DNA from: Saprospiraceae bacterium
GTDB lineage: Bacteria; Bacteroidota; Bacteroidia; Chitinophagales; Saprospiraceae
Assembly (NCBI GenBank): GCA_028284395.1
Contig: JANQRV010000481.1
Span: 1-64,000, forward strand
Reading direction: 5' to 3'
DNA length: 64,000 nt
Numbering within the stretch: the first letter of the stretch is position 1; each line of letters begins with the position of its first letter. This document shows, one piece after another, positions 7,034 through 12,575 of the stretch. Below the pieces are notes generated by a model, which made no database searches, was not told the origin of the DNA, and saw nothing but the letters and a program-made list of their open reading frames with translations. The position numbers and the translations under genes are program-made.

Positions 7034-7059
7034 GGCCTTCTGTCTTGTTATTGACAGCT

Positions 7060-9060
7060 ATGTCGGAAAAATTAAATACCTTTCTACAAAAATCCGACAC
7101 CGGCATGACAGACCAAATTACTTGGCATAAAGTACTTGAGAATCCCGCAGATTTACCAGATGGTCGCGTAATGACCGTTCAAGCTGGGCATAAGAGTTTT
7201 TGTCTTACTCATTACCAAGGTACCTTTGGATGTTTAGACAATAAATGTCCACATCAAGGAGGGCCGCTTGGTGAAGGTTCAATTGAAAAAGGCTTTTTAA
7301 GATGTCCATGGCACGGGTGGGACTACCATCCCTTGACAGGAAAACCTCCTGGTGGTTTTGACGATGCTGTAGATACATTTCCAGTTGAAATCCGAGAGGA
7401 CGGCATTTTTATTGGTTTACCGGCAGATTCGGTTCACGAACCAACAATTACGGACATTATGGTCCAGACCATGGTTAACTGGGGGGTGAATGTAGGCTTC
7501 GGGATGGTAGGACATTCCAATTTAGGTTTAGCTGATGCGATTCGAAGAGCGGAGGAGCGAGGCGATATGCGTTTTTATTCGATTCGTCATGAAGGAGCAG
7601 CATCTTTTGCAGCTTCCGCTTTCGGAAAACTGACTGGAAAACCAGCTTATTGTTTTGCTATCGCTGGTCCTGGTTCAACCAATATGTTTACGGGCCTTTG
7701 GGATGCCAAGGTAGATAGAGCCCCAATTCTAGCTTTAACTGGTCAGGTTGCTACACAAGTCGTAGGTACTGGAAACTTCCAAGAATTGGATCTGGTAAAG
7801 GCCTTTCAAACCGTAGCCGCATTTAATCATCGGGTCCAACAAGATAGCCAACACACCGAGTTAATGTCACTGGCAATCAAACATGCAATTTTACAACGAG
7901 ATGTTTCTCATCTCACTTTTCCAGACGAAATTCAAGTTGTTCCTGCGGGAAAGGAAGCCAAAGCTCAGAATGCCATCGGCCGTATCACATCGGTCAAAAT
8001 TTCACCCCCCGCAGAAGAATTGGAGCAGGCAATTGGAATGCTTAAAGCTGCCAAAAGGCCAGTTATAATTACCGGGCACGGAGCACGATTTACAATGTCG
8101 GAAATAACTGCTCTTGCTGAAGAACTCAACTGTCCCGTGTTGACGACATTTAAAGGGAAAGGTCAAATACCGGATCATCACCCGCTAGCGGGTGGAGTAC
8201 TAGGACGAAGTGGAACACCGATCGCCTCCTGGTTCATGAACGAATGCGATCTACTCCTGGTCTTTGGTGCTTCCTTTTCCAAACATACGGGAATTACCCC
8301 AAAGAAAAAGACCATTCAAATTGATTTTGATCCTTTGGCACTCAGCAAATTTCACAAAGTAGATTGTGCGCTTTGGGGAGAGATTTCGGTCACGGCTCGT
8401 CTTTTGAGAAATGCGATTGAAGGGCGAACCAATGCCATGGACCAGCGATCCGAAATTGCAGAAAGATGGCGAATTTGGCGAGCGGAGAAAGCTAGAAGAT
8501 TGCAAGATGATCATGGAAATGGCGTCAGTTCGATTGCGGTCTTCGAGGCTATGAACCGACTCGCTCCATCTGATGCCATCATGTGCGTCGATGTAGGCAA
8601 TAATGCTTATTCGTTTGGTCGCTATTATGAGAGTAAAGAAAATAACACCTTTTTGATGTCGGGCTACCTCGGGTCCATCGGTTTTGCTTTTCCGGCTGCG
8701 ATCGGAGCTTGGGCTGCTCAGGGGGATCAGCGTCCGATTGTCGCGGTTGCTGGAGATGGAGGTTTTGGACAATATATGGGCGAACTGAATACTGCTGTTC
8801 TCTATAATATGCCGATCACGCTGATACTTCTGAACAACCAGGAATTGGGCAAGATATCAAAAGAGCAAAGAGCTGGCGAATTCCAAGTTTGGAAAACCGG
8901 TCTACACAATCCGAATTTTGCGGAATATGCTAGAAGCTGTGGGGCTTTAGGCTTTCGAGTCACCGAACGGGGGAAGGTATTGGATGAGGCATTGGAAGCT
9001 GCATTTTCCCACAATGGTCCGGCTTTGATTGAAGTAATGACGGATGTTTCGCTCATCTAG
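7060..9060 (+). CDS. Rieske [2Fe-2S] domain fused to a pyruvate-oxidase/acetolactate-synthase-like ThDP enzyme
   Basis: A 666-residue cytosolic protein with no signal peptide. The N-terminal ~105 residues are a complete Rieske domain: CPH at 63-65 and CPWH at 82-85 supply the two Cys and two His ligands. The rest is a standard three-part thiamine-diphosphate enzyme of the POX/ALS family: N-terminal pyrimidine-binding domain with the conserved Glu in RHEGAA (Glu178), a middle domain (about 300-450), and a C-terminal domain with the GDGGF...NN diphosphate/Mg motif (565-593). The ATG at 7060 is chosen over a TTG at 7045. Family knowledge says such enzymes decarboxylate 2-oxo acids; the specific substrate is unknown. 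The fused cluster suggests one-electron oxidation of the ThDP intermediate. First gene of a tight operon whose fourth gene carries another Rieske domain. Confidence 0.9.
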   Translation: MSEKLNTFLQKSDTGMTDQITWHKVLENPADLPDGRVMTVQAGHKSFCLTHYQGTFGCLDNKCPHQGGPLGEGSIEKGFLRCPWHGWDYHPLTGKPPGGFDDAVDTFPVEIREDGIFIGLPADSVHEPTITDIMVQTMVNWGVNVGFGMVGHSNLGLADAIRRAEERGDMRFYSIRHEGAASFAASAFGKLTGKPAYCFAIAGPGSTNMFTGLWDAKVDRAPILALTGQVATQVVGTGNFQELDLVKAFQTVAAFNHRVQQDSQHTELMSLAIKHAILQRDVSHLTFPDEIQVVPAGKEAKAQNAIGRITSVKISPPAEELEQAIGMLKAAKRPVIITGHGARFTMSEITALAEELNCPVLTTFKGKGQIPDHHPLAGGVLGRSGTPIASWFMNECDLLLVFGASFSKHTGITPKKKTIQIDFDPLALSKFHKVDCALWGEISVTARLLRNAIEGRTNAMDQRSEIAERWRIWRAEKARRLQDDHGNGVSSIAVFEAMNRLAPSDAIMCVDVGNNAYSFGRYYESKENNTFLMSGYLGSIGFAFPAAIGAWAAQGDQRPIVAVAGDGGFGQYMGELNTAVLYNMPITLILLNNQELGKISKEQRAGEFQVWKTGLHNPNFAEYARSCGALGFRVTERGKVLDEALEAAFSHNGPALIEVMTDVSLI

Positions 9061-9077: not shown

Positions 9078-9281
9078 ATGCAGCAGGTTATTGTCATTTT
9101 GGTCAACCTATTTCAGGCATATCTATTGATTGGTTTTGTATTTGGCATCGCCTTCTTATGGAAGGGAGCCAGAGTTGTTGACCCGCTGGTAAAGGATACG
9201 TCCTGGGCTTTTAAACTGCTCATTTTGCCTGGATCTATAGCTTTATGGCCAATTTTACTAACTAAATGGATTAGAAGATGA
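9078..9281 (+). CDS. Small membrane protein, unknown (redox operon)
   Basis: A 67-residue hydrophobic protein beginning 17 bases after the Rieske/ThDP gene and overlapping the next gene at ATGA. It has two likely membrane helices (about residues 3-28 and 44-62), linked by a short basic/acidic loop with KGARVVDP, and ends in KWIRR. I do not recognise the family. Position and coupling suggest a subunit or assembly factor of the adjacent membrane redox proteins, which is inference. The length and clean operon spacing support it as a real gene. Confidence 0.6.
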   Translation: MQQVIVILVNLFQAYLLIGFVFGIAFLWKGARVVDPLVKDTSWAFKLLILPGSIALWPILLTKWIRR

Positions 9282-9742
9282 TTCGCCCACTGCGGAAAAG
9301 GCATTTTTTTGTTTGGCTCGGCTTGGGCATTGCATTACCCGTATTTTTCTTCCTGTCGTTGCCGAGTGGCACCAATACGAAGCCCGCTACCAAATTTTCT
9401 ACCAGTCGGAAAGAATATTCTGGGAAAGAATTATTGGATGAAATTCAAAGACAACCGTTAATAGTTAAGCTTTGGCAAGAACTTAGTGAAAAAAGACTAA
9501 AACAATTTGAGGTCGTTATAAACGAAAGTATCAATAGCCCTTCCGCGCATTTATATTTATCTCTAACCAATGAAGAAAATCCCGTAAGCGGCTCCAATAT
9601 TTGGATTCAACCTATTTCTGAAATTGGGCGGTACGTGATTCAACTGGATTCACTGGAAAGCACTTTACCACAGTACCATTTTGCGGTATATGATAATATC
9701 ACGAAAGAGTTTCTTCTTCGTTTTGAGCTGTCGAGTAAGTGA
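9278..9742 (+). CDS. Membrane-anchored protein, unknown (redox operon)
   Basis: A 154-residue protein whose ATG overlaps the stop of the preceding gene by 4 bases, indicating translational coupling. Residues about 10-30 are a single uncleaved-looking membrane anchor after a basic N-terminus (MIRPLRKRHFF), followed by a roughly 120-residue soluble domain of mixed alpha/beta character, presumably periplasmic. No Cys ligands or catalytic motif are visible. I do not recognise the family. It ends 23 bases before the ferric-reductase/Rieske gene, so it probably acts with it. Confidence 0.6.
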   Translation: MIRPLRKRHFFVWLGLGIALPVFFFLSLPSGTNTKPATKFSTSRKEYSGKELLDEIQRQPLIVKLWQELSEKRLKQFEVVINESINSPSAHLYLSLTNEENPVSGSNIWIQPISEIGRYVIQLDSLESTLPQYHFAVYDNITKEFLLRFELSSK

Positions 9743-9765
9743 TGAAGTATAAGTAATTTTAGACA

Positions 9766-10800
9766 ATGAGCGTAAAATACGTACCAATCATCTGGAATCG
9801 TCAAAAAAGACGATATGATCGAATTATGCTGATGGCCGTCGGCCTATATCTCCTCTTTTTTACGGGGTTACAATTAGTTTTATTTCCTGAAATATCTCCA
9901 GAAACTTTGATAATAAGAGGGACGGCTACTTTAGCGTTTATTTTTTTGCACGTCATCTTGTTAATCGGTCCCTTAAGTAGATTAGATAAGCGGTTTCTAC
10001 CATTGCTCTATAATCGCCGGCATTTGGGCGTCACGATGTTCTTGATTGCACTTGTTCATGGACTTTTTTCACTGATACAGTTTCACGCATTGGGCGATGT
10101 TCATCCCCTGGTGTCACTTTTTACATCCAATATGGCATATGGGACATTAGCGGATTTTCCTTTTCAGGTTTTAGGCTTCTTTGCATTGTTGATTCTTTTT
10201 TTGATGGCAGCCACCAGTCACGATTTTTGGTTGAAAAACCTGGGACCACGATTTTGGAAAGGTCTCCACATGATGGTCTACCTCGCTTATGGTCTGATTT
10301 TATTGCACGTTTTGTTAGGTGTTTTACAACAGGAAACATCACCAGTCCTAGCTTTGATCACCGGAATGGGGCTGGCGACAGTCGTTAGTATTCATCTCAC
10401 TTCGGCGATCAAAGGCATGAGAGAAGAAAAGCAACTGGTACAGAAAGCGAATGATGAATATCTCGAAGTTTGCCACATCAAAGACATTTTAGAAAATCGT
10501 GCAAAAGTGGTCGTATGCGGCGGCGAAGAAATTGCCATATTTAAGTATGATGGAAAAGTTTCGGCTGTTAATAACGTTTGCAAGCACCAAAATGGACCGC
10601 TTGGTGAAGGAAAGATAGTGGATGGGTGTATCACTTGCCCCTGGCATGGATATCAATATTTACCGAAAAATGGACAATCTCCTCCCCCCTTCACGGAAAA
10701 AGTTGCTACTTACGATGTGAAGGTACTCGACGGTAGGGTTTTCGTAAACCCCTTGCCCTATGCTGAAGGAACAGCCAGACCACCAGCGATTATTTCTTAA
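9766..10800 (+). CDS. Ferric-reductase-like membrane protein with C-terminal Rieske domain
   Basis: 344 residues. The first ~215 form about six membrane helices of the ferric-reductase-like b-cytochrome type; His62, His98, His168 and His181 lie in or beside helices and are candidate heme ligands. A C-terminal Rieske domain carries CKH at 272-274 and CPWH at 291-294, the full ligand set. The basic N-terminus (NRQKRRYDR) should be cytosolic, and with six helices the Rieske domain should also be cytosolic. No FAD/NAD(P)H domain is present, so electrons must come from another protein, plausibly the Rieske/ThDP enzyme two genes upstream. The acceptor (quinone, metal or periplasmic partner) is unknown. 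Middle of a same-strand operon with gaps of 23 and 18 bases. Confidence 0.85.
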   Translation: MSVKYVPIIWNRQKRRYDRIMLMAVGLYLLFFTGLQLVLFPEISPETLIIRGTATLAFIFLHVILLIGPLSRLDKRFLPLLYNRRHLGVTMFLIALVHGLFSLIQFHALGDVHPLVSLFTSNMAYGTLADFPFQVLGFFALLILFLMAATSHDFWLKNLGPRFWKGLHMMVYLAYGLILLHVLLGVLQQETSPVLALITGMGLATVVSIHLTSAIKGMREEKQLVQKANDEYLEVCHIKDILENRAKVVVCGGEEIAIFKYDGKVSAVNNVCKHQNGPLGEGKIVDGCITCPWHGYQYLPKNGQSPPPFTEKVATYDVKVLDGRVFVNPLPYAEGTARPPAIIS

Positions 10801-10818
10801 AATTGCAATCAATTGCCA

Positions 10819-11670
10819 ATGACTATCGATAATAAGAATAAGGATGAATTTTATATTGGTTATTTTCCGAAAGCGCCCCGAGCAGTGGCAGGTGCACTAA
10901 AATGGTTTGTGGGAATTGGTTTAACTGTATTTATAATACTCGCTTTATTAATAGTTAGCGAGCAAAACGAATTTGCTGATTCTACTTTCGAACTGGGGAC
11001 GTCTACACAGATAGAAGGCATCTATGTTTCAAAGCCGGTACCAATGCTCAGGAGGTCGATTGGCTTTAGTCAGAAGCAAGAAGAACAATTTCAGAATATT
11101 CTGTTAATTGGTTTTGGTAAATCAGGTGCTGAAAAAACCATAATGGAAATGAAAGCGAAGCATGGAAAAGAATTAGAGGGTGCAAGAGTTGTCTTTGAAG
11201 GCACATTGATTTATTATGATGGAAAGACTCTTTTGGAGCTAACCAAAGGGGTAAAGTCTTTGATTTCGGTTGCCGGCCCCGGTCCGGTAGTTAATAGAAA
11301 ATGGAAGGCACTCGGGACGGTTTCTCTACGAGGTGAAATTGTTGATCCAAAGTGTTATTTCGGTGTTATGAAGCCTGGAGAGGGCAAAGTACATCGATCA
11401 TGTGCTATTCGTTGTCTGTCCGGAGGAATTCCTCCGGTTTTTAAAGTGGTGAGAGTTGATGGCCAAAGAGAATACTATCTTTTGGAAGGTCTTTCTGGTC
11501 GAGACCTACTTGATCGTGTAGGGCAGTGGATTAGGGTAGAAGGCGAAGCAGAAGAACTTGAAGATTGGAAGCGCCTCAAGATCGCCGGGACCAGCGATAT
11601 CAAAAAGCTAACATTCCGACTTTCGCCGGATGCGATGCACAGATGCAGTCAAGCATTCGTCTACAAATAA
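10819..11670 (+). CDS. Membrane-anchored protein with conserved C-x12-H-x2-C-x3-C motif, unknown
   Basis: 283 residues starting at the ATG at 10819; the TTG at 10813 is an alternative. One membrane helix at about 28-47 is followed by a large domain likely outside the cytoplasm. The striking part is GEIVDPKCYFGVMKPG followed by HRSCAIRC and GGIPP: Cys179, His192, Cys195 and Cys199 look like a metal, heme or cluster site. I recall this motif as conserved in uncharacterised proteins but cannot name the family or role. Being the next gene after the ferric-reductase/Rieske protein, it is a candidate periplasmic electron acceptor or cofactor-binding partner. That role is inference. Confidence 0.7.
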   Translation: MTIDNKNKDEFYIGYFPKAPRAVAGALKWFVGIGLTVFIILALLIVSEQNEFADSTFELGTSTQIEGIYVSKPVPMLRRSIGFSQKQEEQFQNILLIGFGKSGAEKTIMEMKAKHGKELEGARVVFEGTLIYYDGKTLLELTKGVKSLISVAGPGPVVNRKWKALGTVSLRGEIVDPKCYFGVMKPGEGKVHRSCAIRCLSGGIPPVFKVVRVDGQREYYLLEGLSGRDLLDRVGQWIRVEGEAEELEDWKRLKIAGTSDIKKLTFRLSPDAMHRCSQAFVYK

Positions 11671-11675
11671 CCAAG

Positions 11676-12575
11676 ATGCTAGAGAAACTACCTCTTACCT
11701 ATCGAAAATACAGAAAGCTACTGAAGTTTCAAGATGTTGATGGTGGCCGGATCGCATACCTCGATCGTGGTGATGGACCGGTGATTCTCTTAGTTCACGG
11801 TGTCCCTACTTCTTCTTGGTTATACCGACATGTTTCTGATGCCTTGGTCCAAAAGGGGTTTCGTGTCGTGGTACCCGATCTGCTTGGCTATGGTGCTAGT
11901 GATAAACCTAAGGGATACGAAGTTTATCACGAGGAAAGGCAAGGGCTGCGTTTGCTTCAATTAATGGATGCCCTCCACATCGAAAGCTGGATTCATACTT
12001 GCCACGATGTGGGTGGTTTGTGGACCTGGGAAATGCTTCAGCAAGACGCTTCAAAAACCGCTGGCTTGGTTATCCTGAACACCATCATATACGAGGCGGG
12101 TTTCCAACCTCCAATGCGTTTTGATGAAGGTTGGGCTGCTCGTGTCTACACCTTCTTATACAAATGGTGGTTGACCAACGGCTTGATGATAAACTTGACG
12201 CTGAAAAATGGCTTAGCTGACGACCGACAGGCATTGAAATTTAGAGACAGGTTTGATCGTGAGGGTTACAAGATTCCAATGCTTCAAGGAGGAAATCGAG
12301 CATTGTACTATTTCTTTACTCAAACCTGTAATGCATTACCTACGGATTATAAAGAATTACTACAAACATTAGATAAACCAGCCACCGTAATATGGGGCGC
12401 GAAAGATCCCATGCTCAAATGGTTACCCCAGGCAGAAGCTGTGATGGCCGACTTACGGCTTAGTGACGCCAATGTTCACATCCTTGAGCATAATAGTCAT
12501 TTTATCCAGGAAGAAGAACCGGAACAAATCGCAGAATTGATAAATCGCTTCGCAAGCCCTATTTGTTCTGATTGA
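11676..12575 (+). CDS. Alpha/beta hydrolase, haloalkane dehalogenase/epoxide hydrolase-like
   Basis: 299 residues from the ATG at 11676, five bases after the previous stop; an in-frame ATG at 11643 would overlap the upstream gene. The fold motifs are clear: oxyanion-hole HGVPTSSWLYR, nucleophile elbow CHDVGG with Asp as nucleophile (haloalkane dehalogenase and epoxide hydrolase type rather than Ser), an acid in WGAKDPM, and catalytic His in EHNSHFIQEE. The substrate is not predictable; many such marine proteins are promiscuous or non-dehalogenating. Last gene of the redox operon; its 3' end overlaps the converging lipoprotein gene by 17 bases. Confidence 0.8.
   Translation: MLEKLPLTYRKYRKLLKFQDVDGGRIAYLDRGDGPVILLVHGVPTSSWLYRHVSDALVQKGFRVVVPDLLGYGASDKPKGYEVYHEERQGLRLLQLMDALHIESWIHTCHDVGGLWTWEMLQQDASKTAGLVILNTIIYEAGFQPPMRFDEGWAARVYTFLYKWWLTNGLMINLTLKNGLADDRQALKFRDRFDREGYKIPMLQGGNRALYYFFTQTCNALPTDYKELLQTLDKPATVIWGAKDPMLKWLPQAEAVMADLRLSDANVHILEHNSHFIQEEEPEQIAELINRFASPICSD

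Follow-up and report, generated by a model that had tools for sequence, protein, structure and literature searches.

A Rieske domain fused to a thiamine diphosphate enzyme suggests an electron route linking 2-oxo acids to the cell membrane

Introduction

Where could the electrons of a thiamine diphosphate (ThDP) enzyme go when a Rieske iron-sulfur domain is part of the same polypeptide? Known electron acceptors of ThDP enzymes are FAD or a quinone, lipoamide, NAD and 4Fe-4S clusters, and an attached Rieske centre would add another electron exit. Such an arrangement is encoded in a stretch of 64,000 nucleotides from a Saprospiraceae bacterium (hereafter the window), in which an open reading frame on the + strand (7045-9060), uninterrupted over its full length, carries a Rieske domain and a ThDP enzyme in one chain. 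An earlier note on this DNA had proposed that the Rieske cluster takes electrons from the hydroxyalkyl-ThDP intermediate in single steps, giving a new kind of 2-oxo acid oxidase.

The fusion is a genuine and widely conserved protein

The gene is described by the following feature.

7105-9060, + strand: Rieske-ThDP fusion gene, 651 amino acids from ATG 7105; alternative starts at ATG 7060 and TTG 7045

ATG 7105 is probably the likelier start than ATG 7060 because homologues start at that methionine. Residues are numbered here from nucleotide 7102 (residue n begins at 7102+3(n-1)), and the positions first reported for the CPH (63-65) and CPWH (82-85) motifs and for Glu178 hold if translation begins at ATG 7060. 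Within one chain, Pfam places, in order, a Rieske domain (PF00355, 9e-14) and the TPP_enzyme_N (2e-29), M (3e-33) and C (2e-37) domains; the key residues are C49, H51, C68, H71, E164, GDG 551-553 and NN 578-579, with GDG and NN marking the two ends of the ThDP/Mg motif.

The Rieske-ThDP fusion is a genuine, widely conserved protein. It is full length in 86/86 aligned proteins, which span Bacteroidota, Acidobacteriota, Myxococcota, Cyanobacteria, Actinomycetota and haloarchaea. The C/H/C/H Rieske ligands, Glu164, Lys584 and Glu588 are invariant in these 86, and all four Pfam domains are present in each of the 64 aligned family members that were scanned; conservation of this extent lies well outside chance. 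The Pfam order and the retention of the ligands and the catalytic Glu thus bear out the initial observation of complete Rieske ligands ahead of a complete POX/ALS-type enzyme. The earlier note had also named homologues split by a frameshift as a possible refutation; the domains are joined in all 86 aligned homologues. Matches at E<=1e-120 in the Saprospiraceae, Acidobacteriota, Myxococcota and Cyanobacteria samples all begin within query residues 1-14, and the only two shortened copies in these four samples (G004:C19 and G749:C6) both reach a contig end. A frameshift or assembly artefact as the source of the fusion is ruled out by its universality among family members.

Scanning a single genome from each species gave 541 relatives, the best 80 of which are full-length fusions with 63-78% identity. 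Cultured organisms with a homologue include Roseivirga sp. E12, Flagellimonas flava DSM 22638 and Haloferax larsenii. Plasmid records from haloarchaea and a Mycobacteroides hold homologues that are likewise fused (53-60% identity) and are annotated only as 'thiamine pyrophosphate-binding protein'. Below the fusions identity drops sharply, to ordinary POX enzymes that lack a Rieske domain at about 36%. The family, annotated in this generic way in those records, extends over many phyla and both bacteria and archaea. Among genome samples in which many assemblies are metagenomic, the gene is present in 13/100 Saprospiraceae genomes, in 16/247 and 13/141 genomes from the phyla of an acidobacterial and a myxococcal match, respectively, and in 1/292 genomes from the phylum of a cyanobacterial match. 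The patchy spread and the carriage on plasmids suggest horizontal transfer.

The Rieske domain resembles ferredoxins of aromatic dioxygenases

The N-terminal part of the protein comprises the following features.

7123-7422, + strand: Rieske [2Fe-2S] domain of the dioxygenase-ferredoxin type, from Pfam, alignment and structure matches
7246-7248 (C49), 7252-7254 (H51), 7303-7305 (C68) and 7312-7314 (H71), + strand: Rieske ligands, invariant in 86/86
7423-7446, + strand: short linker, residues 108-115, from the predicted structure; length near-constant in homologues (about 8 residues)

The best matches of the Rieske part are HcaC and T4moC, which are ferredoxins of aromatic dioxygenases. With these two and the naphthalene dioxygenase ferredoxin it shares the Rieske domain sequence and ligand pattern, though those ferredoxins are separate small proteins that serve oxygenases, whereas the domain is fused here to a ThDP enzyme. 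All 86 aligned proteins have the CPH...CPWH pattern (C-x-H...C-x-x-H), and the domain lacks the bc1-type disulfide cysteines. Dioxygenase-type Rieske ferredoxins are one-electron carriers, and Rieske proteins without the bc1-type disulfide cysteines are expected to have a low potential, about -150 mV for this type.

In the predicted structure the last Rieske strand extends to residue 107, and the ThDP part opens with a helix at residue 116. Since confidence in the linker is high (pLDDT about 90 or more) and the single-chain model as a whole has a pTM of 0.90, the Rieske domain is probably docked at a fixed position. ThDP in this superfamily is located between subunits.

The ThDP part is related to pyruvate oxidases and has a remodelled middle-domain pocket

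The remainder of the chain consists of three domains.

7444-7797, + strand: TPP_enzyme_N (PYR) domain, with H138 (Asp in POX/PoxB) and catalytic Glu164 at 7591-7593
8020-8400, + strand: TPP_enzyme_M (middle) domain, with an FAD-type outline and a remodelled pocket
8590-9036, + strand: TPP_enzyme_C (PP) domain, with GDG...NN at 8752-8838 and invariant Lys584 at 8851-8853

The architecture is that of POX/PoxB enzymes: the TPP_enzyme N-M-C arrangement, and the ThDP fold, catalytic Glu and GDG...NN motif that the fusion has in common with Escherichia coli PoxB and Corynebacterium glutamicum PQO. Enzymes of the PoxB/PQO type are also the closest solved structures (3EYA and 9EV6), with E. coli PoxB, its tail excluded, as the best fold match (3EYA; Z 42.4; 518 residues at 2.5 A). 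No PDB chain combining Rieske and ThDP parts is among the structure matches listed, which were dominated by the ThDP part and hardly tested the Rieske part. In a tree of 15 Rieske-ThDP members, eight POX/PoxB-type enzymes, AHAS, AlsS, Xsc and Oxc, the fusions form one clade (0.994) whose sister is the POX/PoxB group (support 1.0 for the two together). This clade lies outside the eight POX/PoxB enzymes sampled, on a stem of length 0.69.

By score, tail and key residue, the fusion is outside the defined POX/PoxB families. Its best NCBIfam model, pyruvate oxidase PRK08611, gives 402.2 bits and misses the cut-off of 742; the PoxB model gives 310.8 bits (cut-off 792, missed), and the acetohydroxyacid/acetolactate synthase models give 302.3 and 293.9 bits and miss cut-offs of 509 and 538, respectively. 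The C-terminus lies 2 residues past the last strand in 15/15 tree members, as against 27-66 residues further in POX/PoxB. Compared with PoxB/PQO, the fusion thus lacks the C-terminal membrane tail, has Lys in place of Phe465 and carries a Rieske domain at its N-terminus. Pyruvate oxidases of the Bacillus/Listeria type (PRK08611) are about 35% identical, and only the fusion has the Rieske domain. Respiratory 2-oxo acid oxidation as in PoxB/PQO serves as the working model, and the Rieske-ThDP enzyme probably functions as a respiratory pyruvate oxidase does.

The Rieske-ThDP family has 32 fixed positions whose residues occur in none of the eight POX/PoxB relatives in the comparison. Position 584 is an invariant Lys, where these relatives have Phe, Met, Gln or Glu; we take it to correspond to the electron-transfer aromatic residue of these enzymes (LpPOX Phe479, PoxB Phe465). 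By analogy with POX and AHAS structures, both H138 and K584 presumably lie at the active site, and since the invariant Lys584 and His138 are both basic, they hint at a 2-oxo acid with an extra acidic group as substrate. In the middle domain, the invariant residues F350, K351, R369, S370, A390 and H395-T396-G397 are absent from POX/PoxB. Because these changes map to the part of the POX middle domain that holds FAD, the flavin site is, by this comparison, either re-tuned or lost. With the aromatic residue replaced by Lys584 and the flavin-pocket residues different, POX-type electron transfer to FAD may have been lost.

These changes also bear on the idea that the enzyme is a non-oxidative carboligase or decarboxylase, similar to acetolactate synthase, in which the Rieske cluster serves solely as a sensor of redox state or oxygen, or as a stabiliser of the fold. 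The substitution of Lys for the POX electron-transfer Phe is compatible with this idea, as is the behaviour of AHAS-type enzymes, which retain FAD without net redox use. The middle domain taken alone, moreover, matches carboligases (CsmA, AHAS and BbmA) as well as it matches POX, so that FAD and non-FAD enzymes fit alike. The whole-enzyme tree nevertheless groups the fusion with oxidases, and a sensor role leaves unexplained why Rieske-bearing redox proteins are its commonest neighbours (described below). We regard this non-oxidative reading as rather unlikely.

Genes for other Rieske proteins accompany the fusion

Directly downstream of the fusion gene, and in the same direction, lies a membrane module (9078-11670).

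9078-9281, + strand: small hydrophobic protein of 67 amino acids, whose stop overlaps the next start (ATGA)
9278-9742, + strand: membrane module member, a 154-amino-acid protein with an N-terminal hydrophobic segment and an LRKRH...W motif
9766-10800, + strand: membrane Ferric_reduct (heme b type) protein with a C-terminal Rieske domain (Ferric_reduct-Rieske), the proposed electron acceptor
10813-11670, + strand: partner protein with an N-terminal hydrophobic segment and a conserved GEI.DPKC..G.MKPG.GK.H..CA..C..GGIPP motif

The partner protein (about 280 amino acids, with a C/H/C/C motif) has no match in Pfam or the PDB and adjoins the Rieske-ferric-reductase protein in nearly all loci. Small open reading frames of 68-77 amino acids lie beside the same module at other loci. 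The module, which also lies at L097-L099 and L108, occurs without the ThDP gene as well.

We clustered open reading frames around 81 loci and counted neighbours at the 78 loci where the gene lies on the + strand, these loci having been picked by similarity. The commonest neighbour, at 39/78 loci and always on the strand of the Rieske-ThDP gene, is a Rieske domain fused to the glutamate synthase FMN/3Fe-4S domain, with the FMN and 3Fe-4S motifs kept (Rieske-GltS). This protein has about 535 amino acids and no glutaminase domain, and it also occurs on haloarchaeal plasmids. The Ferric_reduct-Rieske protein and its C/H/C/C partner are found at 23/78 loci each. Because the membrane Rieske protein is missing nearby at most loci (about 55/81), no single electron acceptor is universal for the Rieske-ThDP enzyme.

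Across 100 Saprospiraceae genomes, strong co-occurrence links the three Rieske proteins. Ferric_reduct-Rieske is present in 12/13 genomes with the gene versus 7/87 without it (p 6e-10, phylogeny ignored) and Rieske-GltS in 12/13 versus 18/87 (p 9e-7, phylogeny ignored), or 30/100 genomes overall for the latter. The genome that supplied the window encodes its Rieske-GltS on another contig (L085:1432-3030, contig C198). Acidobacteriota and Myxococcota also have both partners next to the gene, and haloarchaeal plasmids have Rieske-GltS and a Na+/H+ antiporter there. That three Rieske proteins share a neighbourhood in different phyla argues for a common electron pathway, and the fact that the fusion travels with two other Rieske-carrying proteins suggests an undescribed route by which electrons of 2-oxo acids reach the cell membrane. 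The linked Rieske-GltS and membrane Rieske-heme proteins provide testable partners.

The prevalence of Rieske-GltS raises the alternative that it forms one soluble pathway with the Rieske-ThDP enzyme, in which 2-oxo-acid oxidation drives formation of glutamate or an N-substituted glutamate, or glutamate oxidation yields the 2-oxo acid. Its rank as commonest neighbour, with an unvarying strand, its occurrence beside the gene in haloarchaea too and its intact glutamate synthase motifs all favour such a pathway. The two proteins are nonetheless separable: the 18 Saprospiraceae genomes noted above have Rieske-GltS without the ThDP protein, and a close Rieske-GltS orthologue is missing in 15/38 Rieske-ThDP genomes, several of which are incomplete metagenome assemblies. 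A single soluble pathway consequently seems quite unlikely.

A proposed path for the electrons

On balance, and with moderate confidence, we favour a Rieske-wired oxidative 2-oxo-acid decarboxylase from which electrons exit via the attached Rieske domain; in this genome the membrane complex encoded next to it would receive them. In this scheme, whose oxidative direction, electron route, bound FAD and acidic 2-oxo acid substrate we infer, the ThDP part would decarboxylate a 2-oxo acid in the fashion of pyruvate oxidase, as the chemistry of its superfamily suggests. Two electrons would leave the hydroxyalkyl-ThDP, probably via FAD in the middle domain, and then pass singly out through the fused [2Fe-2S] cluster, a step suggested by the conserved ligands and fixed linker. 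The Rieske domain would hand them to a partner Rieske protein and here, judging by co-occurrence and adjacency, to the membrane heme/Rieske complex (9078-11670) and on to the respiratory chain. The attached Rieske domain would thereby take over the role of the C-terminal membrane tail and quinone site of PoxB.

The earlier proposal is upheld in part: the fusion is conserved and belongs to the oxidase branch, and its neighbours are electron-transfer proteins. Direct single-electron uptake by the cluster from the ThDP intermediate is left unsupported. Because the middle domain keeps the general outline of FAD-binding relatives despite its remodelled pocket, a ThDP-FAD-Rieske relay appears at least as likely as direct transfer from hydroxyalkyl-ThDP. 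A bolder version, which we hold only tentatively, is that the Rieske cluster replaced the flavin and takes single electrons from hydroxyalkyl-ThDP (by way of a radical, with Lys584 standing in for the POX aromatic residue), and that a common membrane Rieske/heme hub serves Rieske-tagged dehydrogenases, including Rieske-ThDP and Rieske-GltS. If true, flavin replacement and a common hub would amount to an undescribed respiratory wiring scheme in bacteria and archaea.

Like pyruvate:ferredoxin oxidoreductase, the favoured oxidative enzyme would send electrons from a ThDP adduct singly to Fe-S clusters. That enzyme differs in its unrelated domain set, 4Fe-4S clusters and use of CoA, and Pfam detected no POR or 4Fe-4S domain in the fusion, only Rieske and TPP_N/M/C. 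Flow in the reverse direction, in which the Rieske membrane protein or a flavodoxin feeds the ThDP enzyme for reductive acyl transfer or 2-oxo-acid synthesis, would suit the usual role of dioxygenase Rieske ferredoxins as suppliers of electrons to an enzyme and the FMN-reductase and flavodoxin genes that adjoin some copies, but is very improbable, since 2-oxo-acid synthesis demands a potential far below that of a usual Rieske cluster and domains of the PFOR kind, 4Fe-4S included, are absent.

Other neighbours of the fusion gene

The remaining neighbours recurring over the 78 loci include a protein of about 286 amino acids (35), DUF427 (19), a Na+/H+ antiporter (15) and EgtD (15); YHS, TauE/SafE and flavodoxin/FMN-reductase proteins also recur. 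EgtD is sometimes accompanied by EgtB, or by a rhodanese matching PDB 'Sulfurtransferase' chains (E about 1e-204) that we take to be the ergothioneine synthase EanB. Ergothioneine genes adjoin the Rieske-ThDP gene at loci L037, L038, L044, L047, L071, L170 and L171, which belong to Bacteroidales and to divergent family members in the Myxococcota sample. In that sample, two members that rank among the most divergent (52% identity) adjoin both EgtD and the EanB-like rhodanese.

Within the window, the membrane module is followed by an open reading frame for a haloalkane-dehalogenase-like alpha/beta hydrolase (11565-12575), which as called overlaps the last part of the gene before it; its true start probably lies further in. 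Taken as pathway clues, neither this hydrolase nor the ergothioneine genes led to a coherent route. Searches of the open-access literature, with most subscription papers outside their reach, found no paper on a fusion of Rieske domain and ThDP oxidase, on the Rieske-GltS fusion or on the combination of Rieske, ergothioneine and glutamate synthase.

The protein of about 286 amino acids (L065:7134-7991 and 34 other loci) is conserved, has a WPHHFD motif and is modelled confidently by AlphaFold (pLDDT 93.9), with no match in Pfam, NCBIfam or the PDB (Foldseek). A cysteine-dioxygenase-type protein (PF05995) is encoded downstream of the Rieske-ThDP gene at two loci (L052:8487-9188 and L038:8943-9647). 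Together with the TauE/SafE and rhodanese neighbours, this protein hints at a link between the Rieske-ThDP enzyme and sulfur compounds.
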